DNA from: Agelas oroides
Taxonomy: Eukaryota > Porifera > Demospongiae > Agelasida > Agelasidae
NCBI GenBank assembly: GCA_949130485.1
Contig: OX422190.1
Span: forward strand, 7,656,167 to 7,720,166
Length of the DNA: 64,000 nt
Direction: 5' to 3'
The notes below the pieces were generated by a model that was not told where the DNA came from, ran no database searches, and was given only the letters and a program-made list of their open reading frames with translations. This document shows positions 7,292 through 58,690 of the stretch, one piece after another. The translations under genes and the position numbers were made by a program. Numbering within the stretch: the stretch's first letter is position 1; each line of letters starts with the position of its first letter.

Positions 7292-7297
7292 TTTAAT
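7292..7297 (-). promoter_or_regulatory. Possible polyadenylation signal ATTAAA for the NLR
   Basis: The minus-strand ATTAAA lies about 120 bases past the last recognised LRR exon (7417), which would end in an immediate stop if its donor is not used. A weak variant signal; supported only by position. Confidence 0.3.
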
Positions 7298-7416: not shown

Positions 7417-7500
7417 TTCAGTGTTTCCAAGCTCTGGGTTACTCTCAGACAGTCACCCAGTGCAGTGGCTTCTTCAACTCCAATTGCATTCCTTCCAAGA
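7417..7500 (-). CDS. LRR exon, type A (last in array)
   Basis: 84 nt, phase 2-2, starts LGRNAIGVEEATALGD. The donor reads AA|GTAACT; read-through gives an immediate TAA, which may be the gene's real stop since no further LRR exon lies to the left. Confidence 0.8.
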
Positions 7501-10500
7501 CTGTATGAATTGTATGTGTGCATGCATTGATCAACCCTCACATGGCTAGATAGCTACGTATTAGAAACTGGTAAAAGAGTTTTCAGCTTACTTCAATTCT
7601 TCCAGTGACTTGTTTAGTTGTAGTGCATTGGCCAGAGCTATGGCTCCAGTATCATTGTGTCTAAGTCTGTAGTGAAGTACACACAGACATGAACCCCTTC
7701 AGTCATAGTTCCGCATCAACAAGCTTCATATAATGCACTTCCCCACACAAAACATTGAGTATGGTAAGTGAACCAACTGTGTTCTAGTCCTTTCTGTTGT
7801 CAAAGCAACAGCATAATTATGGTTTGCAAATACACTTGCATTTCTGGTATAACCATATACGTTCCAGCAACTGTACTCATGCAACAGTCATCTTCTGTTA
7901 GCTCAGACGCTTCTCAGTTCTAGCTTTAGGGTATATCCTATAAAGGCTTGTTCCATGCCTGTAACCCCTCTACAACTCCAGATACAGTTACTCATAGCAA
8001 AAAGATCGATTTGAACCCCCAACCATGTGATTTGCTACTGAAAGGTGGAGCCACTTCCATGATTATGGAGTCCACTTCATGCAGTCTGGTAGTTGAGAAG
8101 TGCAATGTTTGATATTTGAAATAAGACTGTTATTTTTTATATCACAAACAAGTATGCTCCTCCCAAATTGAAGTAAAATTATTTTCACATACTCATGCAA
8201 TGGACACATACTGTGCCACCCTCCCTAATGTGCATGCACACAGATGCACACACATACACATGCACTCACACACACTGACTAATTTAAACTTTTCCCTCAT
8301 CCTCTCTTTAGTCATTATAGCAAGAGGTCACAAGATCATTTGACCCCACTCAGATCCCTCAGAAATGAGTTACATAGCCCATCTGCTGGAACTAGAATAT
8401 GGTGTTTGACTCCCCAAGAAGAGAGTTAGTTACATAGTCCTTTTGTTCGACTTCCCTCCTCTAGGACAAGATCATGTGCACAATATATTTTGTGAACATG
8501 ATCTTGTCCTACGTTGTCTGTTATTAAGCTGATCGAAACCATGGTGAAACACTGATAAGGAACACTTGGCCAGCCAAATTATCTGCCATGCATAATGTGT
8601 GTTAGATAGGTAATCATCTCAAGTGACTATATCACAGTCATCACATACATGCAATACCATGGGTTCCATGTAGCGAGGTAGCCATTAGGTACTCCTGTAT
8701 TTGCCTCAACTTGAACCATGTGCTGTAATAGCTATATACCACATTCAGGGCTATTATTGCAGCTAACGTTCAAGATAAACACAAGTTTACTGCCTTAATA
8801 AAGAGATGAGATAGGGATACAGAACCCGTGCCATACTCTGCTCCATTCCTCGCTCTCTTGTCAGTTGCACAAGAAACTTAAGAGGTCTTTATTGAGTGAA
8901 TCACTGATGTGTTTACATGACCAGACATGCACAAAAAACCAACACTGTGTATGAGAATGTGTGCATGTATATTGTAACATGATATGTTTGTCATGCATGT
9001 ATGTATAAAGCTATGTAGAGTTTTACAGGTAATCAAATATCACAACAATGAAACGGTTAGGATCTAAAACTAACAACAATCCTTCCACTGGCTGTGAGTA
9101 GCCGTCTTGTGGTCTCTTGGATTCTTCGCAGACCTCCAAGTCTAAAATGCAGAATACAAATGATCAGTTCTGCTGTCTACATAATATAATTGAGTGCCAC
9201 ACACTTTTCTTCAATTATTAAACTTGAACTTGAGCTTTTTGGGTAACCACTGCAAATGCATCCATACACCAGTGCCACATGGTAATCTGACACACATGGC
9301 ATAGATTACATATCAGATTCTCTAAGTGGTCTTCATTATCTCCACAGCGAAGATTCTATGTATAGGAATATTGAACATGTGACGTCACGTAAGCAAGGAA
9401 ATCCAGGCTGGAGTCGTCAGGAGGAGTGAGGTGTAGTAAAGCTGGTGAACGGAGGCTTGGTGATGAAATTTATACTCTTGGGGTAAGTGCACCATGGCAT
9501 TAATATTTCTTTGAATAGACGCCACCCTCGAATAGTCGCCACACAATTGAAGTTCTGAATGAAACAAACACCACCCTCAAATTGTAGCTGCGGCTAGTAT
9601 ATTCAGCAGGTGCACACATGTGCAAATAATTTCTTATGCCGCTCATCACACTAGCGCTAGGGCTATTTGTGTGGTAGGAGGTGTTTCCACGGCTGACAGC
9701 AGCACTGAGAGGCTTTCAGAGTGTGGATACCTTCTTTGATGTGGAAGTCTGCTAGCACATCAAAATGGATTGTGCCAACTGATAGCATGTGAACAAATTT
9801 GTATGATGACACTGGTTGTCAGTGATTAAAGTGTAAATAGAAAGACTGTATTACATATTCATGATTCCATTCTGGGTGCAATCATAGTGGTCTCAGAATT
9901 GTGCAAGACATGTTTATTTAGGTACATACCGTATTCTCTCTAAAATAGTGGGCAGCAAAAAATAATTCAAAATTGGAGCGTCAGGAAAGTTTTAGAGAGT
10001 TATTAATTTCTAAACGAAGTGTCCGGTGTGAATTAGAGAGGTCTTTAGTGCTAGCTTTGTCATCCTTTATGCGAATTATCAGCCACGCTTTTGTTCCGAG
10101 TTACCATGTGAATTTACTGCTGCTATCTGTGTGCATGGGCTACCGTCAGTACCGATGAACAGACCTGCTGAGTATCACCCTTGGACTCAAGAGGCGAAGC
10201 ATAGTGAATGAAGCCTGGATCATTGTCGATTGCTTTGATCGTAAACTTATTGGCATCGATTTCTTCACAATGCCTCCAAGCAGAAATATAACAATTGTGA
10301 GCTTTTTAAATGTTAAGACAGTTTTGGAGCTGCACCTTCCTATCAACGAGAAAAGCCAAAGACAGTACCCAGTACACACAACATGCAGCATGTAAGCGTT
10401 CTCCATAATCTCCAGAATAACATACCTAGGCTGAAAATAACTTCATAGAGCCTTTCTCTATTCATTGATTCACTCAGCGGAGCTTCGTTTGACTAGCCAA

Positions 10501-13500
10501 CACTCCTAAATAAACTTTGACCTCGCATGTGTCCATTTGAATTAGAGAGGGGAAATTCCTTAAATTTTCTGCTGTCCGGTTTAATTAGAACGACGAAAAA
10601 TTCACATTTGAGGTGTCTGGACAATTACAGTGTCTGTTATTTTAGAGAGAATATGGTAACACTTAACAGTTTCCTTTAAGGAAATCTTTAAGTGAATGGT
10701 GAGGTCTAGGCATGCTGATCCCACCTAGCAGCACACTTTTGGTGAATGAATGTTTCATTCATGTGGTAAGTGCACCATGGTACTATCCACTACGCACTCG
10801 AATGTGATGTACAACGCTTCTTTTGGCCTGTGTATTGCATTATATTTGACTAGATTGATCCTTTATTTTGCATCTTGGGGTGTATGTAAATGTCAATCTC
10901 AAAGTGGAATACTTCGCAGCTAGGTGTGTGTATGTAACTAGTTAAAAGCTTTTGTGAGTAATTTTATGTGGAATTAGCTACTTAGTAGTTACTTACTTCA
11001 ATCTTTTCAAGGTCTGGTTCACTCTCAGAGCATTAGACAACTCAGTGGCTCCAGAGTCATCAATTACTATTCTTCCAAGTACATTTTGCTCTAGACTGTG
11101 GAAGAGAGTGGTCCAGAATTAGTGCAAGTAAAAGTAATGAGGAATGAGTCTCACTTAGTAGACTTATATTATCACTAAGAGTCAGTGCAGTAGGAAGGAG
11201 TATACACCAAAGAAATATCTCCTACCACAGCCAATTGTTTTCATGCATGTATATATTTCCATATAGCTCAGTTTACAACTCACTCCACTTCTTCCAGTGA
11301 CTTGTTATGTTGCAGTGCTATGGCCAAAGCTTTGACTCCAGTAGGAGTCAGAACATTGTATCCAAGGCTGCAGTGGAGTATAGTATAATCAGAGATGAAC
11401 ATACTTAGTTCAATACAAATTTCATGCTTCTGTTGCTATGGCAATGATAACTTTCTAACCGCCAGAGGAGCCAGTGATAGCTGTATGGACTTACATTGAA
11501 AATTATACATTTGATAAGGCCATAACTGAAAACTTGTACATCAAATTCCCCATACAGCAAAAGAGCATGGTGTCTAGTCATTTGTCATTGTTTTTGAAAT
11601 AGCAATAGGAAACGTGTTCACTGCTAGGTTTGTACTTGAACACAGAAATTTCATGTTTCTGTTCCCACTGTACCTTACCAACAATATGACTTCAATTAAT
11701 TGATTTACATGTGTCCATACTGAGAATACACAAAGTTAATTTCCTGTTTCTGGTCAGCGTGCTGGTCAATTTCACTGAGGTACCTGATGTATGTAATCTG
11801 ATGAAATCAGTATGTAGCATGCAACTTAGTCTAGTCCCCAAAGCCTACTCCCTCATGAGTAAAAACAATCTGGTGTTGAATTTCTTGCGCTTAGCGCACA
11901 CTCTTGCAACAGTGTAACCTAGCAATGTTCAAAACATTTTGTGTCAAACCCACTGAAAAAAGGTATGGATACCCGAGTGGAGATAAAAGATAAGTCCTAT
12001 CTGGTAATTAACGATCTTGCAATCTCATTGATCCTTACCACTTTTTGGAAATAGGCCCCCAAAATTTGACTTTGTTCACCACACAATTCCTCACTGGGAG
12101 GAATGCACAAGCTGGGCACAAGACTATAAGCAACAATAGTGTTTACACAACCTGCACTCAGTGGCTCACCATCCATACTTCTAAGCATTGGCTGTGTAGA
12201 TTTGTGACACCATTTTGTTTCCGCTTGGGTTTTTCAACAAAAAAAAATACACCCCAGAAGAATGATAGTGAAGAATAAAAGAGAAACCACAAAAGTGCAT
12301 GTGCATGCCCAATGTTCTAGGCATTTCTTTCCCAGCCTGAGAATACTTACTGAAGTTTGACACCACAGCTTGAGACAGTTATCATTGAAGTATCTACTGT
12401 GCATGTGCTAAGGCCGAGAGCTAATTCACGGCGATTGGACAGGGCCATACATTTGCCATCAATGAATTGGATCTTAACATGAAGGTGCTAAAGATGAGAA
12501 AATGTGATTTTTTTAAACCACTGCTAACCTGAGTTGTTATCACAAATGTTGACACTTCAGTGACCAGGTATCTACATTGTTAACAAGCTAGGACTGTTAG
12601 CTACAACATTCTGGTAGCAGACTACCAATACAGCATGGCCACACTGAGCTACAAGTCATGCACTTTGATACTTCAGTGAAGTGTGCACTTAGCTACTGGT
12701 TTGCTACACTACAGCCCATCCTGTCTGTCCACAGCGCTTTTGATGGCAACAGCACTTCTTTACAACACCGACCGACATCTCTCAAACGGCTTTGTGCGAT
12801 GTTTTTAGCTCTTACACAACTCAGATACTGGTACACAACTTGGGAGTGGGGCCATCTTCCGCCCAGCCAGTGAATACTAAATGGGGCCTGCGCCATAGAC
12901 ATAATTATAGAGAAGCTGGTTGGCTTTGTTTACCATCTCGCCTGTACATGGCTTCAATTACCACCAAGTAGCACCCAATGGAATACTTAGACCATAGATA
13001 GTGACATACAGTGTACATGCAATAGCAAGCCAAGTTAGCTTCACTTCACTCTACACAAAATAGGTATGCTTATTATTAGGAGCTGGATTGTGCACCTAAC
13101 GCCGATTCCCTGTTTCACTTTTGCCCGAATCTAGCTAGGCTTCCACATTATGTGTACCTAGTGGGTTAGCATTTATGGCAGGAAAAGCTGATTTGTTCAC
13201 CTTCATTCAAGCCACCTGCATTCAAGTCACCGTTTTCTTTGGTGCTGGATTGTAATTCATACCTCAGGATTGACAAGCATACATGTGTGTACACACTACT
13301 GTGCATGGGACCTGTCACATGCTCAGTGTACACCTGAGCTCCATATGCAGTTTTAATACCCAGCTAGTGTATATCACAATAAATGTGAAAAACACATTTA
13401 GCACAATTTGCACCACTTGTAGCTCAAAACATTCCCTTTCATTTGGTGTAATTATCAAGTATATCCCATAAAGTTTGGGTCAATGGTCATCATTAGCGTC

Positions 13501-16500
13501 CATTGACATTTGCTCTCTCAAAAACTGATGTTTTGATTTGGATAAATTTTTACTACTTGCTCTTTGAGGCCTTTTCTTTAAGTGCAGTAAAACTGGTTTT
13601 GAGACTGCCATGGGATTCGGAGATACTTGACAGAATGTAATGGCAGTTAGAGAGTTTTGTGGTATGCATAGTTGCATGACAAAATGACACAAGATGCAGG
13701 GATGGCGTGAAGGTATTGTGGTGTCATTATATTGTTTGGCTGGTTTTTGAAGGTTAAATCCCTACATGCGCTTGTTTTTGTTCAGAAAACGTTTTTGTGA
13801 CTTGCTCTTGTTTTTTTTTTTCTGTTTTTTTTCGAGCCAAACCGTACTCCAAGTGGAAAGAAAATGGTAACTGGGGTGCAGGTGGTAACTGCATCTCAAG
13901 TGAAAAGTATCGGGTGTAGGTGGCAGGCCATTTCATCCTGCACATAACAGACTGTTAAGCAGATCCACTAGAGGCACACACTTCCAGGTGGTGAGCAAGC
14001 AGCAAGAGCACAAACTTTGAATAAGAGAAAGGCCATAGGTATGAAGGATGTGGTAAGCAAGGGTGAAAGACAGAGGATTAAATGAAGACATCGTCCTACT
14101 GACAACAAAGGTTGTGCGAACTGGTGAAATCAGCCGCTGAGCTGGTACAGTACGTTAGCTGTTATCTAGTAACAAGTGGTTAGGTTAATCGTACTCAAAG
14201 TTATGGTTGATTAAATACCAAGGGGTAAGCCAAAATTTGGCGAAAAGTTGACTTTTGACTGGCTCTAACTCTGAAGCCATACGACATAGAACGTTGAAAC
14301 TGACTATGGGTGAATGTCTCAACAGACGCCATGTAAGAACCAAATTTCGTCCAAATCCATGTGGGTCAGGTATTTTTTGTGTTGATTTGACATGGAATGA
14401 CCCTTATCATAAAAGTATAGGACGTTCAATCTGAAGCGTTTTTTCTTAATTCCCACTATAGTAGAGCTACCATACACATACCAGTTACATTAGTAATAGT
14501 TATATCCCTCCCTGGGGGGTGGTCGTTTTACACATTGGTGTCGGGCGTAGGGAGGGATATAACTATTATATAACCTGTTACCTAGGCAACATCACTGTAG
14601 AAGAGAGATATGAGCAACATTCTTATATGTTGCCTAGGTAACAGGTTATATGTTTTAGTATAGCCAAGTGGATTCGAAATAGTCGAATGCAGGCTAGCGT
14701 ATGTGCGCCATAGTATGCATTAGAATATACTTACTAGTCGTAGGTAATGGAAGGGGGATAGACTAATCATATCCCAGCTGTGTGGTAATGCTATGTGCAT
14801 GTGCGCTTGCACTTACACATACGAGTTTGTTAGTTTTCATATAGCCAAGCAGATTCAAAATAGTCGAATGCAGGCTAGGATATGTGTGCCACAGTATGCA
14901 TTAGCACTTACCAGTTGTGAATAGGTAATAGAAGGGGGATAGACTACTCATTGATAATTTTGCCACTGTTGTCAAGTACTCCGTGATGTGAATATGGAGA
15001 CTGAGAGTTACTGCATTAGTAACAATGCACATTGGCTCTAATGTCCGTAAGGTGGAACTAGAAAAGGTACTGAACTTTATCATTCTTGCTAGTCTTGTAC
15101 CCAGACTTCATGGGCATGAGACTACAATCCATCCATGCTTAATGCATACTTGCTCTTCCTTTAATCAAATTTGTGTGCTTGTTGCTTGCTCCCCACTTGA
15201 AGTATATGGATATGAACAGCATGCTTAGTAAGAAACAGATTTCATGGATAAATTAATATGTACATACACGGGAAATTTTATAGCCTGACCTCACTCTATA
15301 TGCAAGGAATATGTTTAACCCTTAGGGTCTATAGTGCCAAAAGTCACACTTTTGACGGCACACATTTTTATGGCATCTATATCTGAATGTTGTTCACTCA
15401 TGAAATGATTGCTGCTAGTTTGCTAGTGTTTCCACCTGTAAGACTGTAGAACAGTGTGAGCAGCTCTTTAGATGGAGACTGCCTGATAGAAATAACATAG
15501 CTGAACAGTGCAAGTAGACAGGCTTGTTTTCCCTTCGTTTACACTTCCCTAGAGTAATGCTCCCATTGTGAGTTACTGTGGACCCTTCCTCACGAGCAGC
15601 AAAGCAACTAACAGCAGCCAACCAGACAACAGGAATGGATTAGCCACCACCTATTCAATTCCTGTTCCACAAGTAACTCTTTTTGTAGCTATACTTTCAA
15701 TAATAGCTACATGCTGCTGACTGGCTATACTAAGGTAATGTGTTCTGGTAAGACAAACTGGGCTATCAAACTGCAATCAAGTCTCTAATTTTTAGATTTC
15801 TTTCCACTTGAGGAGCAGTTATGGTTAAAAAAAACAACAACAAAAATTAAAAAGCCCAGTTGCCTGGTCAGGGAAATAACTTTGCGTGGCCTGAGTAGAA
15901 AGTGACAGCTAGTACTTCTGAAATCAAACTCGCTACACCAAGGAGATCACCTCTTCAAGGCCATCACTTTTTAGTTGTGAATGGGGCTGGGATAGTTACT
16001 TACTTCAGTGTTTTCAAGCTCTGGTTCATTTGCAGAACATCAGCAAGTGCAATGGCTCCCTCAGATCCAATTCTGTTCCATCCAAGACTGTGGAAAAGAG
16101 TAATCCATAATTAGTGCAAATTAATTAATGGGACAGTGAGTCTGACTTAACACAGTCTGACTTAACATAGTTATGTCATCATAGTGTTTTTGGAATAGAT
16201 TCTAGCCTCGGTCCCAGGCCTCCCCTGTTTTACCTTCCGTTTGCGTTCACAATAATACACGGGAGCGGAAGGTCGGCGAAAAACGGGGAAGGCCTGGGAG
16301 CATTCATCACGTGAATGACGTCAGGTGGACGCGAGGTGGACGTAGGGGGGGAGGGGCCGATATTCAAATATATACGTACTAAACTTGAAAGCGAGTTTCT
16401 TACCGGTCAAGATGAGTATAGTTTCAATCACGCTATTAAAGGTCTGGAGTCCGAAAACACGGTAGAGCGCTTGAACGGATGGTCCTGTGCGTTGTTTTGG

Positions 16501-19500
16501 CAGTTGGGCCGCTCCCCCCCTACGTCCACCTCGCGTCCACCGACGTCATTCACGTGATGAATACTCCCAGGCATTCCCCGTTTTTCGCCGGCCTTCCGCT
16601 CCCGTGTATTATTGTGAACGCAAACGGAAGGTAAAATGGGGGAGGCCTGGGACTGAGGCTAGAATAGATAGGATATGCATGGCAAAAATTACCAACTACC
16701 ACCATTTCTAAATGTATATAAGTATGAGCCTCTCAGCAAAATCAACCACTCGGCATACTTTGTCAAAAATGACACCAGCTGAGAATGTTGACTATAATGA
16801 TACTTTTATTTTAAATCTGCTGTATGGTTCCATCTAAATGCTATCAATAAGCAAGTATATTTTGATTGTATGCGAGGTTTCAAACATACAAATCTCAAGT
16901 GCATAAGGCTTCTGTTCTACTGCGTTCTGCTGCATGAAATAGCAATACCACACAAGTATGCCTTTATATCCCAAGTTACAAAGTGGATGTCCTATGCATT
17001 CAACGTTCACATTTCCTGATAGCAAGACACTCAGTTTAAAACTTACTTCAGTTCTTCAAGTGAATGGCTACATTGCAGTGCTCTGGCCAAAGCTATGGCT
17101 CCAGTGTTAGACAGACCATTACTTCTTAGGCTGCAGTGAAATGAACACAGGGAGTATTTTAGGGTGTGGTTTAGACTTGAATAAAAATCCCAACTTTCCG
17201 TTGTTGTTGTACTGACAAATTTTTACAGCTGATGATGTTCGTATGCATTCAGTTAATCAACTTTTGTGATTTTTCAAGTGTACACATTTGAGGAGTAGTT
17301 ACTATCATCAGCCTCCTTGGTCCAAGGAGATGTAACAGGATTGATTCCACACACGCAAACTTTCATATGCGTAGCTTTGATTTCTAGGCCAGTATAAGGT
17401 CACGATAGTTACTTTAGTGTTCTGAAGCTCTTGTTCACTCTCATGATATCAGCCAGTTCAGTAGCTCCAGAATCTCCAACCCCATTCCGTTCAAGACTGT
17501 GTGAAGGAAGAAGTAGTGCAAATAGTGAAATATATTAATGGGACATTGAGTGTGGAGTGTGACTTAACACAGACTATGCCATCAATAAAATTCATGCAGT
17601 GGAGTAATCATATCACTGTGCCGTAGCCTCCAGTCCGGTTGGTCCAGTTTTAACTGGACCACTTTGTTCCTTACTCTTTGCTTATTAGCGCATGGTTCAG
17701 ATTGGCAAACGTCCCACAAGCGTACAACATGTGTGTTGGCAGGTCAGATTCAAGTCTCAAAACTTGAGAGATGGCTGCAACCAGTGTGAAAGAGCCTCAG
17801 TCAGTCTCTTCCAAGTCTTCCCGATGAGCCCCATCCTCCCAGTCATCAAGCGATTGATTGGGAAGCCAAAACTAGAGCCGTGTGGTGCATATTATGTGTA
17901 GGAAAGGTAGATATTAATGCAGTCCCACGTCTGTTGTCTGTCTGCTATTCTGGTCCACAAATGGTATGAGAAGTGATCTCAGATCATCTAAATTCAAGGG
18001 GGGTGGGCGCCGAGCACAAAGCGTGAGGCGTAGCTGAGCATAGAATGCGAGGTGGAGAGATGCTCCCAACTAGTAACCTGATCTCTTCAAATCTGATGGC
18101 TACGGACCTGTATCAGTTAAAACCCAGGTCCAGTAAAGAATTGCAGCATTGCAAGAAATTCAAGGTAGCTAGCTTTGCAGAGGATGATGATTACTGTTGT
18201 GTGTGCCTGTGCATGTTCCTTGTGGTCAGCATTGCATAGCAGCACAAGACATATTACAATTGCAACTTTCTCACAAATATCTGCTGAACCATCACATTTC
18301 CTATCTTAACTTCACTGAGGTGCTGGGCTTCTAGATCAAATCAAGTAAAAGAATTTGCATATAGGAATAGATCTCCAAAAACGAACCAAACAAGACACCA
18401 AAATACCTGACACCATCCCTACATCTTGTGTCATTTATCCTACCATGTTATGTGGTGTTTGTTACATGGTTTTAGTTCAATGCAATTCTGATGTGTGTTT
18501 CTTTTGCTTATGGATACACTTTTGTATGTAGTGTAAGCTCTCGAAAATACACCCACCTATTTTGCACACCACTTTGAGGCCAAAGTGGGGAGGGTGCGTT
18601 TGCTCAAATATTTCATTAGTCCCGTCCATACGCCCCCTGGTTCCTTGCGATGTTAAATGTGAGGCTGACAATCACGATAACTTCCGCTGCTTTCTGGAAG
18701 AACGGCAGTTTCGCTGAGGGAAATCAGTGGCGTTTGTGTTGATAGTAAGTCAAAAGGCACCAAAGCAACTTCCGGCGTCAGTGGTGACAGGGGACGACTT
18801 CACGTAAGTTTGTACTGTGAGCAACGTAAACCTTGGTGATGGCCAGCAAACAAGGCTAGAGTGATTTCGTATGTTTGTGTCTATGACACAATCGACAATG
18901 GAGCTAATCCAAAAGCTTGTTAAGAATGCCCAGAAGATGTTAGCTACGGGGTGTTTACACGAGGGAGAAATTCCTATGAATGAAATTGGGGGTCAAAGAG
19001 GGGGAGGGCATTTGCTTGAAGGGGATGTATTTTTGGAAGCTTATGGTAAATGGTTAGTTTATCATACAGACACTGCACTCTGCTACATTCTACATTTACC
19101 TATCCACAGACAATAAATGATTGCAGCCATTTCACTAAATATAAATCCACAACATATAAGTCATCTCATCCGAGTGTTTCCTAAGTTCTACATTGCAGTT
19201 TTAGTGGTAACCAGTGAGACAAAGGCTATTTATTGTGAACAGCTGCAATTGTTGTTGGTTATTTGCATATCAGATTTGGATGGTCTTGTATGTGGAAGGC
19301 CATAGAGTGAGCACTATGTTGTTGGGCGTGAGGGATGAGTTATGTTGTGAGTTTTTATAGTGGAAGTTTTGCAATGTTTGTGTGTGAATATAGGCTAATG
19401 TGGCATGTAGCAGATGTTGTGCGTGGTTCGAAAATGGCACAAGATGTAGGGATGGTGTACAAGCATTGTGGTGTTGTTCCTACCTTGTTTGGTTTTTTGT

Positions 19501-40500: not shown

Positions 40501-43500
40501 TACCAGGCTCTCCCCCTCCTTAGTGGGGAGAGCCTGGGAACAAGGCTACATCCATCCATGTAGCTTGTGCATTGTGCACTCATGTACGATCACTAGCATG
40601 CAGTGGGATGATGAGGTGCAGCTTATAACTACATAAGGCGGTTAATATAACCAAATTCAGCACATTTGATTGGATGGAAGTCATGTGATATGAACCAATT
40701 AATTTCAGTAATCCAGTCCAGCAATCCAGTCCAGTGATCAGATACAACCAAATTGCCGTGGGTTCAATAAAGAAAGTTACCATACCAAAAGTTGATTTCT
40801 GTGAAGATAAGCCGCTTTGATTTTCTGAGAATTTTTACACTTTGCTATTTAAGTCTGTATGGACTAGAATAGTAACTTACTTTAGTGTTTTCAAACTTTG
40901 GTTCACTTTCAGAGTATTAGCCAGTGCAGTGGCTCCCTCAGATGTAAGTACATTCCATTCAAGACTGCGAAAGAGAGAGTTGTAGCTACATGTATGCTAT
41001 CAAGAATTAGTGTAAGCATTGAATGGGATACGTAGCAAGATGGTTTGCTCTCTCACTTTAATTCTTCCAATGACTTGTTAAGCTGCAGGGCTATGGCCAG
41101 AGATATAGTTCCAGTGTCAGTGAGACCATTGTTTCTGAGGCTGTAATGAATAAACTTGAGTTACAACCACATAGATTACATATTTCTGTTGCTATGGTAA
41201 TGACAGCTTCACAACCAGAAGCACCACATAATTCAAATCTCAAACATCAGATTCACACAAAACACATCTAAGTACAGAGGCTAGTCAATTGGTTTGCAGG
41301 CACTGTTGAGATTAAAGCCATAGCAACAAATAATGCTAAGTTCTAATGCTAGACATCTTGCATGTGGAATATATATGAACAAGATGACCTCTCTAGGGCG
41401 CATGAATTAAATTCTCCAATACATTCAACTGATAGCATTACAAATTAATATACATGTACTTCAAGTACTTCAGTGCACTTTTGGTTAAGTTACACCGCAC
41501 AGTGCAAGCAGATTTTGTGCAAGAAGAAAGGGTAGGAAAAGGGGGCCACCCAAAGGGTGATATACATATGGATGCTGCTGCGTTGGTTGGCTTTGGGACA
41601 ATTCTCAATATGCTTGCACAAATGGGCTTAGCAATACTACTCACACCCTGTAGGGGCTTCACTTCTGGTGACACTAGGATGAAAAAAAGCAACTGTCATT
41701 TCATCGAATAGACACTGCCCTGAAACAGTAGCCGTAAAATCGGTAGCAGTCTGAGCAAAACAAACGCCACCTTCGAGCAGTAGCCGCAGCTAGTATACGG
41801 TGCACAAGCACATGTGTTTCTGATGGCAGTCACCAAGTTAGCATGGCTTTTCCAGAGATATAAGCACTGCCCTCAAATAGTAGCCGCCCAGAAAAATGAG
41901 CAGTGAAAAAATAATAGCCATGACATCTGATCGATGAAATATAGTAACCGCTGCCACACTTGGAATCTTATTGTCTCATTCCCAGACCAATGAAACCAAC
42001 AAAAAGGAATTATGGGATGGAAACAAGCCTGAATATGCTAGTGTTGGTAGTTCGTAAGTAAGCACAGTACAACAGCGTAAAACATGGCTAGGCTATGGAC
42101 ATACACTGCAAGAACTAGAGAAGATAAAAATTTCTGATGCTCTTGGTGTTTTGTCGTGCTCTGTGAGTGTACTTGCATTGCCTTTCCAACTAAAGGGGTG
42201 GACTTGTCACATAGCTATGTACCTCAAATTTTTTCGTTTGGAGTAACATATCTCAAATACCCTTTACTTTTAGGAAAGAACTACTATTGCAAGAATGGGT
42301 GTGCTTAGGGTACTGAGTCTGTTCACTGTGCTGCAGGTGCACTTGAGTTTAGTTTTGAAGCCAAAGCTCCAATAGAAGTGAAAATATAGTGCATTGAATT
42401 CCAACCCCACAAGACAATAATGGGCTTGGGGAAGAAGTCACAGTAGAGTCAAGTAAGTTCATAGCCTCATCCCCAGGACCCTCTCCCCCCAGGAGAGGCC
42501 TGGTACTCAATGTTTGCACATGCACGAAATATTCCTTTATATTTTCCGTACAAAGCTTTGTGCACTTACCTTGTCCATATGCAGAAGATTATACTAACAA
42601 AGAATACAGAGCTTTCTTTGAAATGGAGTCCAGCGGAAATTAACTTGCAGAGTCCTGATAGAAGATACTTTCAGATGAAAACTTACAGTCAAACAGAAGG
42701 TAGCAAATCGATTTGCCGAAAATGCCCATCGGTAGCCACAGAAACACTTATCTTCCTTCATACACGGCTTGTAGCAGCTCCGTCTCAAACATGATCGGCC
42801 TTTACAACAGAAATGGCAGCGATAAAGCCTTAGCAAACAGCAACTTGTCCAGAGAAGCAGCAACTTATGTGAAACGAATATTCATGGTTCATATACATAA
42901 TAAGTACCTAGTGTATGGTAAGTATTCATTATTTTACAAAGCCCCCCAAAACTTGGGATATTGATATTTCACACATGTGTAAACAGTGCATACCAGGTCT
43001 CTCCTCAGGGGGAGGGGCCTGAGGACAAGGCTAGTTAGTGCATGGCAAAATCGTGAAACAAGACCAATAAAGCAAAAAACTCTATAGCTCTACAATTTAA
43101 ATCATTATTATAATTACACTACTGATCTATTCCATAAAGCATTTTTGTGTTGTCATTTTACAGATTAGTGTTAATTGGGCATAGCCTGACACTAATGTCC
43201 AAGATCACTCCTGTATGATGATTATACAATGTGTTATCTAGGTAACACTGCTACCTGGTACAGTTATTTTGGAAACAAACTCGTTCATCAACAAGTTGGA
43301 AAAGTGTTGATTGACAGCAGAATGGTAATGGAATCCACACACCATTCTTGTAACGATACAGTACATACCCATACCCTCAGATGAGTGCCTGCATACCTGG
43401 GCAGCAACCGCCATCATCTTCCCCACTGCCTCCCAACTCCAATCATCCCCAGAACTGCCACCATCATACATGCATACAATAACTATTGCATGGTAATGTG

Positions 43501-46500
43501 CAGTCTGAGAGTTACTTACTTCAAAGTTTTGAAGTTTTTTATTACTCTCATATCAGCCAGTGCAGTGGCTCCCTCATCCCCAATTCCAGTCCACTGGTAA
43601 TCAGTGCAATCAAGACTAAGTAAGAATTATATCAGAAAGTGAAACAAATGAACATACAGCACATACTATTCTAAACATCCAGAATCCACCTCCCACATTC
43701 CTGCATGTAGCTTTATAGTTGGCCCTGTCAAACTATTCACATGAAACAATGTAGTTAATATGTAGCCTGATCAACAAGCACTGACACTTTTCGTCAGAGC
43801 CCCAAATCAGCATACAACTCACTTCAGTTCTTCCACAGACTTGTTTAGTAGCAGTGCTCTGGCTAGAGCTATGGCTCCAGTAGCAGTCAGATTATTGTCT
43901 CTTAGGCTGTGGGGAGTATAATCAGACACAAATGCACTTGATCAACATTACACTGGTTTCATGTTTCTGCTGCTGTGGCAATGATAACTTCTCACCACCA
44001 TGGGACCCAATGATATCAGTGTGGGGTTCAAATGGAATATTGTATAAATTTCCCCGCAATAAGGAAGGAAGGAATTACAATGGGGGTGTTGCCACACTGG
44101 CTGTTCCCATTGAACCCCTTTTTTGCCAAGCTGGTTATAAATGATTCACATTACACACATTACTAAGTTTACACTTGAGGGCTAATTAGTTGTTTTTATT
44201 GGTAGGGTTTTATAGACCGAGAGGACTAAAACACAACAAGATGCTATGAGAATATTTCCTGACAGCTGAAAACAATAATAAATTTCTTTTATGCTAAATG
44301 ATCAGCTCCTTCATCGTATGAGTTCACACTTGGGCAAGGGTTAGCTATGTATTTTCATTTTCATACTCTGCAGCTCTCATCTTATAGCTGAATGGCACTA
44401 AATTACACCAAGTAGGAAATCTCCACTCAGCTACCACAGTGTATTTAATTGCGAGAGGAAAGACAGCTGTAGTCAAAAGACACCGTCTTGATCCACCTCC
44501 ACATATCTACACATGTCTAAAGCCCTTACCCTAACCCTAACCCTGAACCCTAACTCCGAAACACCCTTTTGAGTGCTACTAAGTTACAAAAACCAGTTAA
44601 CTAACTCACATCCTTGCCACTTCGTTTCGTTGTCACAACATTCAATTGTGAGTGAGCCTCACACCCATGACATAACTGTGAGTGAGCCTCACACCTGTAA
44701 CATAACCGTGAGTGAGCCTCACATTAGTAACTCAAGTGTGAGTGAGCCTCACACCCGTAGCGTAACTTTGAATGAGTCTCACAGTAGTAGCTCAAGTGTG
44801 AGTGAGCCTCACACTCGTAATGTAAATGTGAATGAGCCTCACATTCGTAGTGTAACTGTGATAGGGCCTCACAGTGGTAACCAAAGTGTGAGTAAGCCTC
44901 ACACCTGTAGCATAACTGTGAGTGAGCCTCACACCCGTAGCATAACTGTGAGGGAGCCTCACACCCATAGCATAACTGTGAGGGAGCCTCACACCCATAG
45001 CATAACTCTGAGGGAGCCTCACACCCGTAGCATAACTGTGAGGGAGCCTCACAGTGGTAACTCAAGTGTGGATAAGCCTCACACCTGTAACTCACACCTA
45101 TAGTGCAACTGTGAGTGAGCCTCACGGATCACACTGAACAGCCCAAGTGCAGCCCTGGTCCTAGCTCAGCCTTATGGAACTAACTATACCCGAGGCGTAC
45201 CACTACCATAGCAAAGCATACGCAATAACTTGCATAAGCATGCTGTTACTAGGATAGGTATGCCATTAATAAGAGAAGCACGCTTCCATTTAAAGTCCGT
45301 TTCCATTTAAAGTCCGTCGACAGCATCTCAAAATGGACTTTGCCAAGTGATCACATGCAGCCAAAGTGACATGACAGATAATCAGGGTGAAGGCTCCAAA
45401 ACAGTGTAAATAGTGAACGAGATAGCAAGACACTCAGTTTACAACTCACGCTACGGTGTGATGCTCACTCATACTTACCACTGTGAGGCTCCCTCACAGT
45501 TATGCTATGGGTATGAGGCTCCCTCACAGTTAGGCTTCACATTTACATTATGAGTGTGAGACTCACTCACATATTAACTGTGAGGCTCATTCAAAGTTAC
45601 TTAGTATATATACTTTCAGTGGCTTGTTTGACTTGTAACTTACTTTATTACTTTTAAGCTCTGGTTCACTCTCAGAGTATCAGCCAGTGAAGATGCTCCA
45701 ATATCTTCAATTCTATTCCCTTTTAGACTGTGAAAGAGAGCACATGTACGTAATCTCCTGAAAATAGTCCCACCCTTAAAAATAAGCCCACCCCTCTTTG
45801 TTGAAAGGAGATATTGCAAGGAGTGCTTTTCTCTCCATCTATTTATGCTGTAGTACATGCAGTTATGTTAAGCAAAAAGCACTGAAGGAGCAGCACTGTA
45901 CAAGAGGAGTGACTAAAAAATGAAGGCAGACACCATTTGGTGTTATTGTATAAGCAAGTGCATGACAAATGAGGCATTGAAGATATTGGAGCATCTTCAC
46001 TGCATACATGTAGTCACTGCATACATACATAAATAGGGAGACTAATTGTGACCTGCTGAGCGAAAACCCAACAGATTGTAAATCGAGATAAGGCCGGAAA
46101 TCGGTATACCAATGTGTAATTGTGCAGCAGAAAAAAATGGAAGCAATCGGTTGCTTGGTTCCCATGCTTCAGAGAGAAATGCGTAGCGGATGCGGAACGC
46201 AACTTTTTGAGAAAACACAATGTTTTTACAGTAAAATTTTAATGTCTCCATTACTATTGTGTTACGAAAATTTACACGTGTTCTTGTAAAAAGCAACTTG
46301 AAAGTCAGCAAAGACAGTTGGGAAAGACAGCGGTTATAAAAGCGGGGGCTTACATTGTGTCTAAGGACAGAAAGACAACTGTATACGGACTAGAAGCTGG
46401 TAAAATCGTTTGTTTTGAAAACGCGTACAAGCTGTCCATAGCAACGCGCTCCCGTATTTCACTGGCCTGCCTGTGAGTTCGAGCTTATATCATCTTTATA

Positions 46501-49500
46501 GTAGCAGAACTGGGTTTCATAATTCAGTATGATACACTCCAAGCCCACTGTGACACGTTGGTGTAATAATCTGAGTTTAGCTGGGAAACGACTTGTACGG
46601 ACAAAATTGCCTCTAACTCAAATTCAATATTTGCACGAAGTGCCGGGTTTTCGCTCAGCGGGTCACAATTGCTTGTGAGATGGGCTTATTTTCGAGTGAA
46701 GTATCACAACTCCTGAAAATACACCCAACCCACACTTCGAGGAGCCACTTAAGTTCATTGCCCAAGGGTGTATTTTCGAGAGATTAGTGCAAGTAATGAA
46801 TAGGACAGCAAGACACTCATTTCACAACTCACTTAAGTCTTTCCAGTGACTTGCCAGGCTTGTATGCAACTTACTTTAGTGTTTTCAAGCTCTGGTTCAC
46901 TCTCAGAGAATCAGCCAGTGCAGAGGCTGCGGAGTCTTCAATTCTATTCCCTTCAAGACTGTGAAAGAGAGCACATGTCTTCTAACAATTAGTGCAATGG
47001 GTTGCAAGACATTCAGTTTACAACTCACTTCAGTTCTTTCAGTGACTGGTTATGCTGTAGTGCTCTGGCCAAAGCTTTGGCTCCAGTGGAAGGCAGACCA
47101 TTGCCTCTTAGACTGCAGTGGGGTATATGATCACACATGAACACAATCGAGTTTTAGATCCAAATTATAAAATGTACATGCTTCTGTTGCCATGACAATA
47201 ATTGTCCCCACAGAAGTCAGTGTTGGTTTCAATTGGAAATTATACATTTCCTGTGATCTTAGCTTAAACCTCGCTCATCACATTTCCACATACAAGCATC
47301 TCAGTATGGTGGCTACTCAACATTAATGTTGCCATAGCAACAGAACATGGGTTTACCAGTGCATTTCAAATACAGTAGACTGTCACTAATCTGAACTGTG
47401 GTAATCCACTAATCCCAATAAATTGTAGCTCATTATTTTACATAATTATAAGTTTACTTGTACATATTACAAACTATTAATCAAATTCTAGAGCTGCTTG
47501 ACCACATTTTGAAAAATTTATCCATGAATTGCCACATTGAAGCGAGCTACGTTATAAATAATGAAACTGTCAGTAATTTCAACAAACACAACAATCCAAA
47601 CAATTGTTGCAGTTATTGATACAAGGCTGTTTGGATCAGTGAGGGTCAACTTGTTTACTTGCTTACTTTAGTTTGCATTCGACAGTTACTTACTTCAGTG
47701 TTTTCAAGATCTGGTTCACTCTCAGAGTATCAGCCAGTGCAGAGGCTCCAGACTCTTCAATTGCATTCCCTCCAAGACTGTGAAAGAAAGTGTACAAGAA
47801 TTGCAGGATTATAGTGCAAGTAGTGAATGTGATAGAAAGACGCTCAGTTTACAACTTACTTCAATTCTTCAAGTGACTTGTTTTGCTGTAGTGCTCTGGC
47901 CAGAACTATTGTTCCAGTGGCAGTCAGACCGCTGTCTCTGAGGCTGCAGTTGGATATAATCAAGCAGGAACACAGATCCAAATGTGGCAGTCCATGGTTA
48001 GAAATCAAGAATTATTACAGTGGTCCAAACTTTCTGCAGAGCTTAACACACACATCAAATATGTTTACAAAGTAAATGAAAGGAAAGATTCAACACTTGT
48101 CATGCTTCCCCTAAATTAATTGCCACGTGATGTCTCCTCATCAATATGGCTGCCAACAATCACCCCATTCAGAAAAAGCCTGCTTCTTGAGTTAATTGTC
48201 CAGATGCGGTGTGAAAGTAGTCTTTACTTGGAGGTTTATTACTAGGGTAGTCAACAGGCTTCACTCCCAAGCATTGTCAGATAAATCCATAAGAGCTGAT
48301 TTTTGAGGTGCAAAAATATTTACATAGCATAGTATAGCTACAAATCACCAATTTAACTGGAAAGATAGCTTTGAAATTACAGTTTTATTTCGAGTACTTT
48401 TCTTTCAGCTATTTTAGTGAAGTATCATGGGTGGGCGTTCCTTTCATGATGTCATTAATCATAGTGTGCGACTAGGTGAACAGTATGGCTGCTGTCTTTG
48501 TGTGATTCACGTTCACTGGCTGTAGGAGCAGAGTATGAACTCTTACAGTTTCTCGGGTAGAAAGCATGTTACTGGCATTGCGCAGTGCTTGTAATTGATA
48601 TCCATGCCCACATTTGTGGTTTCCATACTAACATGCATATAACGTATATATAAATCTTGTTTCATGTCGTTGTTTAGATCTACACAATATTGACTTTTTG
48701 TGAACCTGTGCATCAAGTGCAAAAACTATACATGTCCCATGCTTGAGCTGAAAACTAACCATTCATATGCAGAAGCAGCAGATAATGTTATGGTGCTTTG
48801 TGAATGCATGTATATTTTAAGAAAGTGACCTGTCCGAATAAATTGATAATCGGATGAATTAATTTTATTATTTGCCTTCCCTGAAGTTGTTTTTGGAGAC
48901 ATTTCTGCATCAATACAATGCCTCAAGACTCCTCCATTCCACAACTGATTATGGTTGCCAGAGTTACTGTGAGAGCACTTTGGGGCACTGCTGGGCATTG
49001 ACCGGGTTATAGATCAATAATTCGCTAGGGAGAAAGTAATGATATTTCGCCTTCATTGCTGTGTTGCTGCTACACAAGTTGATGTCCTTGTGATATTGGT
49101 ATCATTGGAATCCATAGGTCATTAGCAATACTCTGGTACAAGTCTGGTGTTTGTACATTGCATAATTCTCAAGCTACATCTGCTAAGCAAATTGTTTGGA
49201 GATTTCAGATAGGTGACTTTTGGAGATACTTTGCAACATCTCCAGAACTACACAACCTATAAACACCAGACTATACTACACCACATTTACTCCACTTATA
49301 TTTCCAGAATGTTTTTAGCAATCTCAGATTGTAAGCATCTCTTTCAATCCATAACTGATTGTTTCGTTTAGCGTTCTTCTGTTCCACCCTGACACAAACA
49401 AGTTTTCACACTCATGATTGGAAGTGCAAAGTGCAAAGCTCACTTGAAGTTGAAGCGTTCAACTGCTGAAAGAGGCGTATTGACCACGCTTGCATGACCT

Positions 49501-52500
49501 ACGTACTATTAACTGAATGATGAACTCATTCCTGGGAATTGGGAATTTAGTTGTAGAGTGCCATGTAGAACCCTACGTTACCTCACTCACATTTTATGGT
49601 TACGTTATGGTTTTGCTAGTCACATGACCATTATGTTGCATTTCATGAAAATTGAATTCCATGCTTTAATTGCCCTGGGAGAGCCATGATCTCTTCACGT
49701 GACATTCTAGCCAAAGTATCAAATGAAGAATGATAACATGATGATGTGATTATTATTAACAGATAAATTCCTAATTTATACCACAACATGTTCTATCATC
49801 AACAGGTGTGGATCCAGAGATAAGTAATGCAAGGCACCTACCAGGTTGTTAACAGTGGTATACTACAGTGTGAGAAGGTCACTTTCACCGCAAAATTATG
49901 GATAAATGAGTCTGATTTGTTAGGCATTATGTGACCTTCCAGGAACTTGGAATGTGTATGGAGAAATGCACATCTCAATTTAATAATGAGAAATTAGTGT
50001 TATCAGTCTAATGATAAGCATCGCTTAGCAAGCCCATTGCAATACCAGCGGCCTAATTCATGTAGATAGTGTGTAACTAGCTGGAATAGTTGAAGGGCTC
50101 AGTGGAAAAAGGGGATAACCGTTTTCGATGACCCCAAAAGGTCAAAGGTCAACAAAACATTTTCATTGTCAAACAAATCATCAAGGCTGAAGTTTAACAG
50201 TTGAAACTGTGTACTGTTGAAATTCAGCCTTGTTATCTTGCTAGACAATAAAAATTCTTTGTTGACCTTTGACCTTTTGAGGTTATCGAAAACGGTTATC
50301 CCCTTTTTCCACTGGGCCCTTCAGTTGATCAAAAAGGCGGATCACTGCTAGGTAAGCTATTTGTACATCCTGGAAGCCATTGTCAGTGACAATACAGCAC
50401 AGTTTACCAACAGTTCGAAATGGTGCCGATTTTTTCACTTGTTATTTACAGTGGGTGGTCATAAACGTGATGTGGTAGTTGTAATCAAAATAGGTGCCTA
50501 TATTCATGGGGTGCTTATTTCGTATGGGTGCTTATTATCCTGATTTTACGGTATATCAACAATTTGGAAGCTTTAATGTCCATAATAGCGAGAAATTATT
50601 TATTCGCATAGTTGATTTGCTATAAGCTTTTCCCAAGTGTCTAACTGCAACTTACACACCCTCAGGTGTCTAACTGCAGCTTAGATCCCTCCTTAACCTT
50701 GGAGTATACGAATACTGTACTTGAAGTATACATGCAGTAGTACAAGAGCAATTAGCCAGCAAATCTCAGTCTGTATTACAATTGAAGTAGAATGTAGATA
50801 AAGTTTATGCACAGATTATGGTTTATGCACATGTGTAGAGGACACAGGCTGTTCTAAGAAGCAAAAGCAAAAGCGCGTGTGCTAGCTGCATGACTGCTTG
50901 TTATGTTGTGTATCTCCGTAGTTATCAGGTCCTTGGTCAGACACGCCCCATGATGCTGAAGCAGCTACGACACCTGATGCCCATAGCTGTAGCTTTATGC
51001 TTCCACTTAGATTACAAATGACATGGGAAGTGATTCAGCACTTTTTGGCAGTAGAATGCTTCATAGTTATTAACCACACCCTGTAGTTCTATGCGGTTAA
51101 GAGTCTAAATTGTGTAGATCCTTTGGTCTACGCTACTAATCTACACACAACTAGCAATGTCATAACCGTATTCAGTTTTATGCACCACACAGAACGTATT
51201 AGTACCAACTCACTTCAGTGCCTTCAGTGAATGGTTAGTCTTCAAGGCCATGGCTATTGCTATGACAGCTTTATCTGCTATGACAGCTTTATCTGATATT
51301 CCAGCCAAACTATCAAATGAGAAAGATAAAAAAAACAGTGATGGCATAAATATCAACAGGCAAATCACTCATTTCAAACACAGTGATATCACCAACAAAG
51401 GTGGACGTAGAAATACACATAGTAAGGTAGCTGTATCATTCTGTGAAGTACCTTTGTCTGATACTATATATCATGTATTACCAGATGATTGTCATCATAG
51501 GCATTGCGTAAAATGAATCTTTCAAGGAAGTTTGGCAGTGGGCACAACCATGGAATACTAACCAAATGAGAGTGACTTGTCATTGTTAGGCATCATGCGA
51601 AACAATACTTAAAAATGTTTATGGAAAAAATATTAACAATGCAAAACCAGTAATGCCATAACAGTATCCAGTCTCATTCTCAAAGCACCATACAAAGCTT
51701 GTTAGTACAAACTCACTTCAGTGTTTTCAGTGACTGGTTAGTCTTCAAGACCACAGCTATTGCAATGACAGCTTCATCTGATATTTCAGCCAAACTAGGA
51801 TAAAAAATAATTATTATCAACAGGCAAAACACCCATTTCAAACACACTATTAAGACGAACAAAGGTATTGACAAGGCCACATTCCCACTACACAAACATG
51901 AATAATCTATACCAGACAAGTCTGACTTGTCATTACTAGGCATTGTGTGAAATGAATCCTTCCTGAAACTTTGCTAGTGGAATATGTGGGAACCTGTGTA
52001 ACTAACAATCCCAGAACAATATCCAGTTTCACTCTCAATATACCATACAAAGCATGTAACTACCAGCTGATATATTCATGAACTCACCTCAGTGTCTGCA
52101 GTGAATGATTGGTCTTCAGGGCAACAGCTATTGCAGTAACTGCTTCATCTAATACTCCAGTCAAACTGAGGGTTATCAGCAAGAATAACAACTTCATTTG
52201 AAACACTGTACCAGGAGGGAAGGGCAAAGCTTACAACTTTGTATCAGTGCAGAAGTACTCCAAAATACTAACTGTTGAAGCAGTCCTCAATTACCGCTGG
52301 TAGTTATAGCACAAGGAATGAGCACTAACAGTAGCATGCAGCACACTTATTGTGAGGCAAGACTAAACAAAAGCATGCAATTATCTGTGAGAACTGCTAT
52401 TCTAACCTACAGAGTTACCATAAGCTAAAATACAAGAAGTTATCATTAGCTATTAAGTCTACTCATGGTAGATCATACATGGAGGCTGAAAGATTACTGA

Positions 52501-55928: not shown

Positions 55929-56532
55929 CTGAGTACACAACAACAACAACAGCAAAAATAGCAACAAATAAAATTAATGTTAAACTATTTACAGGTAACC
56001 AATTAGTTTGTTTCCAAGTTCAGTTGACTGTACCATATACAGCACAGCTGACAGTACCATATCCAGTTGGTAATTAGATATTGCGAGGCCACCTAAGGTT
56101 TGTAATAAGCAAATTATAATTTAGTGCACCCCAACTCCTTTTGACAATGTCATTTTAGTGAAGGTTTTAATTTAGTTGGGGTACAAACTTCGAAAAAATC
56201 AATTAAACAAATTATTTAGCAGTCATGTAAATCACAGCAATGGAGTCAAGTTACAATAAACTCTGATTATTAAGCCCACCTTATTAAGCCCACCTTGTTA
56301 TATTATTTATTAGGCTCATGCATCGTTCCTGGTAGCTACATAGCATCATTCAGACCTTCCAACTTCGGTCACCTTCAAATTTAGGGATTTCCAAATCAAC
56401 AGGGAAAAAACTCGGAACTTGTACCTAAATCCAGGGGATGTATTTTTTTAGGAACAGTAATTGTAAAAAATCTAACCAAAAAAAAATGCACAAGCATTAC
56501 AAATGACAACAAATAGCTAAGTAATACATGAG
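55929..56532. other. NLR 5' intron region, first exon not found
   Basis: AT-rich. Minus-strand ATG codons followed by donors were looked for; none gives a convincing exon with one leftover base. The promoter was not identified. Confidence 0.5.
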
Positions 56533-57675: not shown

Positions 57676-58690
57676 CTACATGTTGTAAATTCCACAATGG
57701 GCAATGCAGCGTTGACAGTCCTCAGCAGTGATGCTACTGAATGCTGCTAGTACTATGTCCTCTAAGTCCAGGTGCTCCATCTCGAGTTCCGTTTCATACA
57801 CTTTGATTAATGCCTTTAACTTTGAGAAAACTTCCTCAATAGGGTTGAAGTCGGGAGAGTACGGAGGAAGAAACAAAACTAGTGCCCCTACTTCATTAAT
57901 CATTTCAACAATGCCATGTACATGGTGTATAGAAGCATTATCCAGTATAACAATGCTGTGAGGGTTCACACCATTGAAAGGCATGAGATGTGGCAGGAGG
58001 GCACTTTGCACAACATCATAAAATAAATCGCCATCTACTGTACCCTTTACTACTTTTCAATCCAATATGCCCTCAACACTCATAAATGCGATCGAATTTA
58101 GGTGCTGACCTCTTACTAACAGTTTGTGTGTTCTGGCAGGCTGCCCTCGCCAGCTGGAGGCATAACGCCTCATAGCATTTCGCCTGTCGCACCCAGTTTC
58201 GTCTAGGAATATAAACATGTCTGCTTTGTAAACTGTTAATTCTGTAACAAATCTGCAACATTCAAATTCATCTCTCTGCTTGGCTACAATTTGCATCTTT
58301 TGACGAGTAAATCCCTGTGAATGAAGAAATTTACAAATTGTCGATTCTTCCACCTCGATCCTGAGCACACGACATCCTTCAGCTTTTATTTCCCGCAGCA
58401 GCTAGTATTCCTGGGCGTTGTAACACCAACTGCAGTATGAAAAACTGTACAACATCTGTTAGCTTACGTATCAAACCAGATTTGTCGTACTTCTTCTTCG
58501 AGACACTTCCTGTGTCATTGAAGAGTTTGGCGGTCCTCCTTACTGTAGAGGGGTCGATACTAAGATTCGCAGCAATCCTTTCCTACGAAAGCCCCAGCCC
58601 TTCACACTGATACACAATCCGCCAACACAAGTCTTCGGAGTAGGCACTTGAATGCTTGGACTCGCACCTTGTACTATTAACACTAGCCAT
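57676..58690 (-). pseudogene. IS630/Tc1-like transposase, inactivated
   Basis: From ATG at 58690: helix-turn-helix region (ERIAANLSIDPSTVRRTAKLF), then a DDE nuclease with FLDETGCDRR (first Asp), VILDNASIHHVHG (second Asp) and PPYSPDFNPIEEVF (Glu). The second Asp and the Glu are 34 residues apart (DD34E spacing). Breaks: TAG at 58583-58585 in the helix-turn-helix part, a frameshift near 58390-58410, and TGA at 58057-58059 between the first two catalytic blocks. The three catalytic residues survive, so decay is recent. It catalysed cut-and-paste transposition before its inactivation. Closely adjoins the repeat terminus at 57655. Confidence 0.88.

Follow-up and report, generated by a model that had tools for sequence, protein, structure and literature searches.

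A stretch of 64,000 nucleotides from the demosponge Agelas oroides (assembly GCA_949130485.1, contig OX422190.1, positions 7,656,167 to 7,720,166 of the forward strand), hereafter called the window and numbered from its first letter, carries on its minus strand an array of 33 leucine-rich repeat (LRR) exons behind a NACHT exon and a second open frame that holds a Death domain. Together these are a real and probably functional NLR gene of the Death type, with an LRR exon array resembling those of the NLRC genes. The organisation of the array and its head, their relatives in the same genome, the selection acting on the exons and the possible ways in which the array is used are described below.

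Organisation of the LRR exon array

The array extends from position 52165 to 7417, and all 33 of the same-phase exons that an earlier note on this DNA had claimed between these positions were located. Every exon position is based on an exon finder, which scans the minus strand for AG|N Leu...Leu NN|GT in phase 2, complemented by protein and nucleotide hidden Markov models (HMMs). All the 33 exons are open, are preceded by AG and followed by GT, and are in phase 2, that is, an exon begins one base before a codon and ends two bases into a codon. Their lengths range from 75 to 99 nt (24 exons of 84 nt, five of 96, two of 78 and one each of 75 and 99), divisibility by three being the finder's own condition. 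The exon starts with T or C in 31 of 33 cases, which together with the AA at most donors makes Asn the junction residue in 27 of the 33 exons.

Nucleotide HMMs built for each exon type are independent of the open frame and would thus also catch copies interrupted by stop codons. Searched on both strands up to an E-value of 1, they found no full-length copy besides the 33 exons and therefore none with a stop. The exons themselves match at E-values of 1e-23 to 1e-38, which are optimistic as the models were built from the same sequences.

Four exon types were distinguished, where three had been proposed earlier. Type N comprises exons 1 (52088..52165, 78 nt), 2 (51717..51794, 78 nt) and 3 (51214..51309, 96 nt). 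The 14 exons of type B, 84 nt long unless stated, are exons 4 (47860..47943), 6 (47029..47112), 9 (43823..43906), 11 (41057..41140), 13 (38029..38112), 16 (34344..34427), 18 (33137..33220), 20 (30847..30930), 22 (29200..29283), 24 (25143..25226), 26 (21643..21726), 28 (17047..17130), 30 (11284..11367) and 32 (7592..7666, 75 nt). Type A, similarly of 84 nt, has 12 representatives, namely exons 5 (47694..47777), 7 (46875..46958), 8 (45644..45727), 12 (40881..40964), 14 (37142..37225), 15 (35740..35823), 21 (30455..30538), 25 (24393..24476), 27 (17413..17496), 29 (16004..16087), 31 (10997..11095, 99 nt) and 33 (7417..7500). The four C exons, each of 96 nt and carrying a YQW/YHW insertion, are exons 10 (43520..43615), 17 (34058..34153), 19 (32897..32992) and 23 (27929..28024). 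All lie on the minus strand.

The order of types is NNN followed by BABAABCBABAABCBCBABCBABABABABA. After the N exons, B alternates with A or C, and this alternation is broken at two sites where A follows A. One of these two sites carries a truncated B exon of 34 nt (46824..46857, minus strand; nhmmer E 0.001, compared with the B consensus) that retains only the 3' tail and the donor and lies exactly where a B exon is absent between A exon 7 and A exon 8; this relic is a fossil of exon loss. At 45974-46002 on the plus strand, 29 nt in inverted orientation also match A exon 8 weakly (E 0.03). The claim that all copies are intact accordingly holds for full-length exons, none of which is stopped, and fails for these two fragments.

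Self-comparison of the window aligns B-A and B-C blocks with the intron included (for example 79% over 289 nt and 67% over 656 nt). The introns inside the B-A and B-C pairs (n=14; 70-4146 nt) are shorter than those leading from A or C to the following B (n=13; 282-4636 nt; p = 0.001). Introns of the array reach 4.6 kb and the two longest precede exons 30 and 27.

A GTRAGT donor is present in 26 of the 33 exons, and the first intron codon reads as a stop at 32 of the 33 donors and in 104 of 105 exons when the four genes read in this genome are pooled. These immediate stops arise because the donors are AA|GTRAGT-like in phase 2; they are a consequence of the consensus donor and by themselves no designed feature. 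The head joined to the 33 exons gives a model that is free of stops over 2058 aa, counted from 55923. In the spliced LRR part, Pfam LRR_6 matches 21 stretches (E 4e-117), thereby providing the C-terminal LRRs of an animal NLR, and the related solved structures include ribonuclease inhibitors (E 1.6e-33), NLRP proteins and NLRX1. Past the donor of exon 33 a stop follows directly after Leu-Lys, and exon 33 may be the last coding exon. A single ATTAAA lies beyond it at 7297. A methyltransferase exon at 3707-4030 (minus strand; Methyltransf_25, E 1.2e-12) belongs to the next gene on the same strand; the array and the gene therefore end between 7417 and that exon.

Death and NACHT parts of the head

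The NACHT exon occupies 52509..54039 on the minus strand, as defined by its splice sites (a phase-1 acceptor and a phase-2 donor) and by Pfam NACHT, which matches at 53321..53788 with an E-value of 1.1e-12. The score for PF05729 is 48.5 bits against a cut-off of 26.7, so that the NACHT domain of an animal NLR is present. A phase-1 intron of 65 nt separates this exon (54039-52509) from the end, at 54105, of the open reading frame (ORF) containing the Death domain, and the two joined across it form the single Death-NACHT head that was expected.

That ORF or exon (54105..56019, minus strand, as are all parts of the head) is an open frame comprising N-terminal, repeat, middle and Death parts. The N-terminal domain (55606..55923, within the open frame) is Death-like by eye only, with no Pfam match up to E 1; a 68% identical copy is present in one paralogue head, most of the fetched paralogue loci being too short to hold it. 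A coding minisatellite of KADRET repeats runs from 55605 to about 55360, between the N-terminal and middle domains. The middle domain (54582..55236) is conserved in the paralogues and matched no Pfam family. The Death domain proper lies at 54124..54333 (PF00531, E 2e-4, 21.9 bits), and in the paralogues it scores 26.4-32.2 bits, above the cut-off of 22.6 in all the five scanned among the 21. The N-terminal Death domain that defines the NLRD type is counted as present on this basis, the match in the window being just under the cut-off and those in the paralogues above it.

The start-codon exon of the gene was not found. Single-sequence structure models of two head pieces are too poor to use (mean predicted local distance difference test scores of 44 and 35). 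The NACHT exon has no sequence match in PDB and no confirmed relatives in the viral and prokaryote contig collections, and the middle and Death part has none in the viral contig collection.

Paralogues in the Agelas oroides genome

Of 314 NACHT candidates in the genome (259 Mb, 141 contigs), 105 were scored as matches, and each of these 105 lies above the cut-off. The NACHT exon of the window has at least 21 paralogues on seven contigs with 58-72% identity in the best piece (loci L010-L030, some of which have a second piece, listed as L031-L038). Twenty of the 21 retain the middle and Death part with 56-75% identity across 341 aa or more, whereas just 73 aa of it are held by the locus of the other.

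Downstream arrays were read in three of the 21 paralogues: P1 (C8:10.006 Mb) with 22 full exons and five short pieces, P2 (C8:10.054 Mb) with 36 full exons and nine short pieces, counted up to 4 kb before the next NACHT exon, and P3 (C4:5.175 Mb) with 14 full exons and no short piece. Hits were taken on the coding strand at E 0.001 or better. Divergent LRRs of 16-28 bits are included in these counts (3 of 22 in P1 and 8 of 36 in P2). Array lengths in the four genes read are thus 14, 22, 33 and 36 exons, and on both contigs the three paralogues show a head followed by an array. All 72 full-span exon hits in the three are open with AG and GT; their divisibility by three, again a condition of the finder, is informative solely because every full-span hit passed it. 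In P2, the first B exon (L044, C8:10056174) has lost its normal acceptor AG and was counted with another AG, 18 nt further upstream, that preserves the frame. The middle domain is present a second time in the P2 head, in diverged form (L043:5556-6164, 28% identity).

All five short pieces of P1 and eight of the nine in P2 are near-identical copies of one truncated A-exon head, each lying some 83 nt ahead of a complete A exon (L039-L042, L044-L048). A dead exon fragment has thus been copied together with the duplicated unit in P1 and P2.

Searching the whole genome at up to three mismatches gave 380 matches to an A pattern of 34 bases and 208 to a B pattern of 35 bases, the reversed control giving none; places were obtained for the first 100 matches of each pattern. 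Among the matches listed, A matches about 580 bases apart occur at C8:9.43-9.45 Mb near more distant NACHT matches. The spacing at C8:9.44 Mb would fit tandem duplication of a unit, as expected in young arrays.

Selection on the LRR exons

Neutral simulation on the exon trees gives the number of copies expected to carry a stop as 3.75 of 11 for A, 4.27 of 13 for B and 1.56 of 4 for C; about 10 stopped copies are expected under neutrality and none is observed among the 28. The neutral probability of zero stops is 0.039 for A, 0.012 for B and 0.152 for C, and the combined chance over the 28 exons, taken as the product of the three simulation values, is about 7e-5.

The dN/dS analyses of the window omit the N exons as well as the A exon of 99 nt and the B exon of 75 nt. 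The pooled Nei-Gojobori estimates of dN/dS are 0.96 for A (11 of 12 exons), 0.46 for B (13 of 14) and 0.36 for C (4 of 4). Maximum likelihood estimates of omega, the dN/dS ratio, were made for A and B, the C exons entering the Nei-Gojobori analysis alone; the codon models are a custom implementation with branch lengths from a fixed tree, and recombination among the paralogous exons is possible. Codons 1, 4, 6, 10, 11, 14, 15, 18, 21, 24 and 27 were treated as scaffold, a choice based on general LRR structure and made after the exons were seen. In the window, two omegas fit better than one both for the A exons, with 0.41 at scaffold codons against 1.30 at the others (p = 1.4e-4), and for the B exons, with 0.41 against 0.78 (p = 0.016). 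The M8 model is favoured over M8a with p = 0.003 (A) and 0.06 (B); M8a fitted worse than M1a, so this comparison is not relied on.

A larger codon set combines the window with the three paralogues and contains 44 distinct A and 31 distinct B exons, omitting those that are not 84 nt long, score at or below 60 bits or are identical to another. Scaffold omega is below 1 in this set for both A (0.56, p = 0.023) and B (0.47, p = 0.0012). Outside the scaffold it exceeds 1 in A (1.86, p = 4e-4) and is 0.98 in B, and in A the scaffold and other sites differ with p = 3.7e-9. M2a is preferred over M1a with p = 1e-8 in A (sites 3, 5 and 8) and p = 3e-4 in B (sites 3, 5, 8 and 20). In the LRR fold, positions 3 and 5 sit on either side of the conserved Asn, on the concave face. 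The proportions of nonsynonymous (pN) and synonymous (pS) differences in the pooled A exons are 0.41 and 0.33 at positions 2, 3 and 5, 0.36 and 0.17 at positions 7-9, and 0.05 and 0.10 over the scaffold. In the A exons of the four genes synonymous divergence is raised too at the fast-changing codons among codons 2-9, which simple diversifying selection does not explain. By the site tests, the A exons combine a conserved scaffold with fast sites on the concave face and in a loop, the part concerning positive selection being taken with caution.

Comparison with known systems

The architecture, the phase and the LRR number are each already known elsewhere. Human NLRC5 is likely to have 33-43 LRRs, 33 of which fit the consensus, with 36 predicted from 43 analysed exons (PMC3848420). 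Its LRR part is described as ribonuclease-inhibitor-like, with two alternating LRR types and exons that start at consensus position 6 (PMC3848420). The gene in the window resembles it in joining NACHT to a very long LRR part of this kind with alternating types. It differs in having a Death domain where NLRC5 has an atypical CARD at the N-terminus (PMC3848420), in its additional C type, and in that paralogues of one genome vary from 14 to 36 exons. All the 33 exons of the window are frame-preserving and 24 are exactly 84 nt long. We take position 6 of NLRC5 to be the border found here, at the split codon before the exon-opening Leu, with LxxLxL counted by the usual LRR numbering.

In the account of the human NLR genes in PMC6642158, the LRRs of most NOD and NLRC genes are 28 aa long and each is encoded by its own frame-preserving exon, whereas NLRP genes have two alternating LRRs per 171-bp exon; the exon border always falls at the same point of the beta strand, and alternative splicing of the frame-preserving LRR exons is clearest for NLRP3. 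The array in the window is of the former class; it alternates types as NLRP genes do, but with one LRR per exon and with no exon longer than 99 nt.

A report on the sponge Dysidea avara lists 126 NLRs, including 25 of the Death type (NLRD), the Death-NACHT-LRR class to which the gene in the window is similar, and NLRX clusters, one with 15-30 LRRs; gene duplication is proposed there (PMC12909245). Its main text contains neither the word 'exon' nor 'intron', so that LRR exon structure is undescribed in that text. A search of the open-access literature, mostly at the level of titles and abstracts and not covering the Amphimedon NLR study, found no study of the LRR exon organisation of sponge NLRs. 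The earlier suggestion that the array is well beyond usual NLR size does not survive these comparisons: NLRC5, the sponge NLRX proteins with up to 30 LRRs and paralogue P2 with its 36 LRR exons rule out size as a novelty.

The brown-algal ROCO genes also have one LRR per exon, all in phase 2, with exon shuffling and positively selected concave-face sites (PMC11378527). They differ in their 72-bp exons and 23-aa LRRs, in carrying ROC-COR instead of NACHT, in belonging to an unrelated lineage and in that alternative splicing is documented for them (PMC11378527).

What is new is that a single genome contains 21 or more related heads, with arrays of different lengths behind the four read. The layout of one LRR per exon with alternating types, known from vertebrate NOD and NLRC genes, is suggested to exist in an invertebrate (sponge) lineage too, where it sits in a large and changeable gene family. 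The range of array lengths among four sister genes makes intragenic exon turnover directly measurable. Each of the 33 exons encodes one repeat and could be lost or duplicated with the protein left unbroken, and the possibility of skipping every exon in frame turns splicing-based diversity into a concrete question.

Interpretation of the array

The window very probably contains one Death-NACHT-LRR gene of the NLRD type with about 33 LRR exons, the array of which grows and shrinks by in-phase exon duplication and deletion. The NACHT exon would be spliced to these exons to encode one long ribonuclease-inhibitor-like solenoid, the concave face of which may sense a ligand; nucleotide binding by NACHT would drive assembly and the Death domain would recruit a signalling partner. 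This turnover would act on in-phase exons or on B-A (B-C) exon pairs, with selection holding the frame and the scaffold and the residues beside the conserved Asn changing fast. Most transcripts are expected to join most exons. Since all exons share phase 2, the skipping of any one would preserve the frame, and reading into almost any intron would end the protein after a whole LRR because of the immediate stops at 32 of the 33 donors; a retained intron or intronic poly(A) site could thus yield a receptor ending on a whole LRR. Regulated exon skipping or alternative splicing is possible.

Several results weigh against this reading. The Death match in the window falls 0.7 bits short of its cut-off, and exon use, the start codon and the last exon are predictions. 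Within the 14 pairs the distances between B exons and those between their A or C partners are uncorrelated (Mantel r = 0.07, p = 0.30), which rules out B-A pairs as the sole duplication unit and requires that gene conversion, events affecting single exons or later shuffling also took part. A dN/dS near 1 had been named beforehand as the outcome that would speak against selection, and the A exons show such a value (omega 0.95; p = 0.85 against 1), while the B exons lie below it (0.65; p = 0.03). The pooled set gives mean omegas that do not differ from 1, namely 1.36 for A (p = 0.08) and 0.81 for B (p = 0.19). M2a over M1a in the window alone gives p = 0.03 for A, a weak signal, and p = 0.39 for B, no signal. 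At positions 2, 3 and 5 of the pooled B exons pN (0.34) is not above pS (0.37). The raised pS at the fast sites means that gene conversion or locally varying rates may account for part of the signal of positive selection, and this signal weakens further once the synonymous rate is allowed to vary. In seven comparisons of block duplicates exon identity (0.74-0.91) is barely above that of the intron cores (0.72-0.87), the introns having many gaps.

To read the mean near 1 in the A exons as a lack of constraint is nevertheless rejected, since scaffold and other sites differ in both the window and the pooled set (p = 1.4e-4 and 3.7e-9). Constraint acts on the frame and the scaffold more than on overall identity. 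The original claim of selection on the whole array is thus partly supported, by the zero stops against about 10 of 28 expected, by the 72 open exon hits of 72 in the three paralogues and by scaffold omegas of 0.4-0.6, and is tempered by the A mean of 0.95.

The same A mean and the similar identities of exons and introns are what would be seen if only the 5' part of the array, N with some B and A exons, were used and the distal exons formed a decaying tail, still open because it is young and subject to gene conversion. The truncated B relic, the short exon fragments in two paralogues (5 and 9) and the position of the two longest introns before exons 30 and 27 point the same way. Against such decay, all 33 exons are free of stops, with the neutral chance of about 7e-5 for the 28 simulated, exons 30-33 retain AG, GT and the open frame, and the 72 full-span hits of the three paralogues are open without exception; a decaying tail is therefore considered improbable. 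Introns of up to 4.6 kb could hide a promoter, and the window could accordingly hold two or more genes, such as a Death-NACHT gene and a separate LRR-only gene, but no second NACHT ORF is present in the window, the phase is the same from one end of the array to the other, as for the most part is the junction residue, and the three paralogues on two contigs likewise consist of a head and then an array, which makes this division very improbable.

The shared phase, the single LRR per exon and the donors that would end an unspliced protein cleanly are also compatible with a splice library, in which the subset of LRR exons differs between transcripts or cells in a manner resembling Dscam or the brown-algal ROCO genes and the product is a repertoire. 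Splice variants are reported for the same kind of layout in the latter (PMC11378527), and human LRR exons are frame-preserving with NLRP3 the clearest case of alternative splicing (PMC6642158). However, a shared phase is also an expected by-product of exon duplication and the GTRAGT donors of 26 of the 33 exons suggest constitutive use of most of them, so that a splice library seems unlikely, although it is less so than the decaying tail or the divided locus. An extension of this idea is slightly more doubtful: the 380 A and 208 B matches, behind the four heads and near other NACHT matches, might constitute a genome-wide library of splice-compatible LRR exons from which animals or cells make many receptors by skipping and by intronic ends. 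If true, such a library would amount to combinatorial recognition in an animal without adaptive immunity.

Other features of the window

A minisatellite occupies 44642-45125 in the intron between exons 8 and 9. Inverted repeats resembling miniature inverted-repeat transposable elements, with identities of 73-95%, were observed in introns of the array at 16199-16665, 35308-35703 and 50091-50323. Upstream of the gene, two ORFs at 57679-58401 on the minus strand encode a DDE_3-type transposase (DDE part E 1.8e-18).

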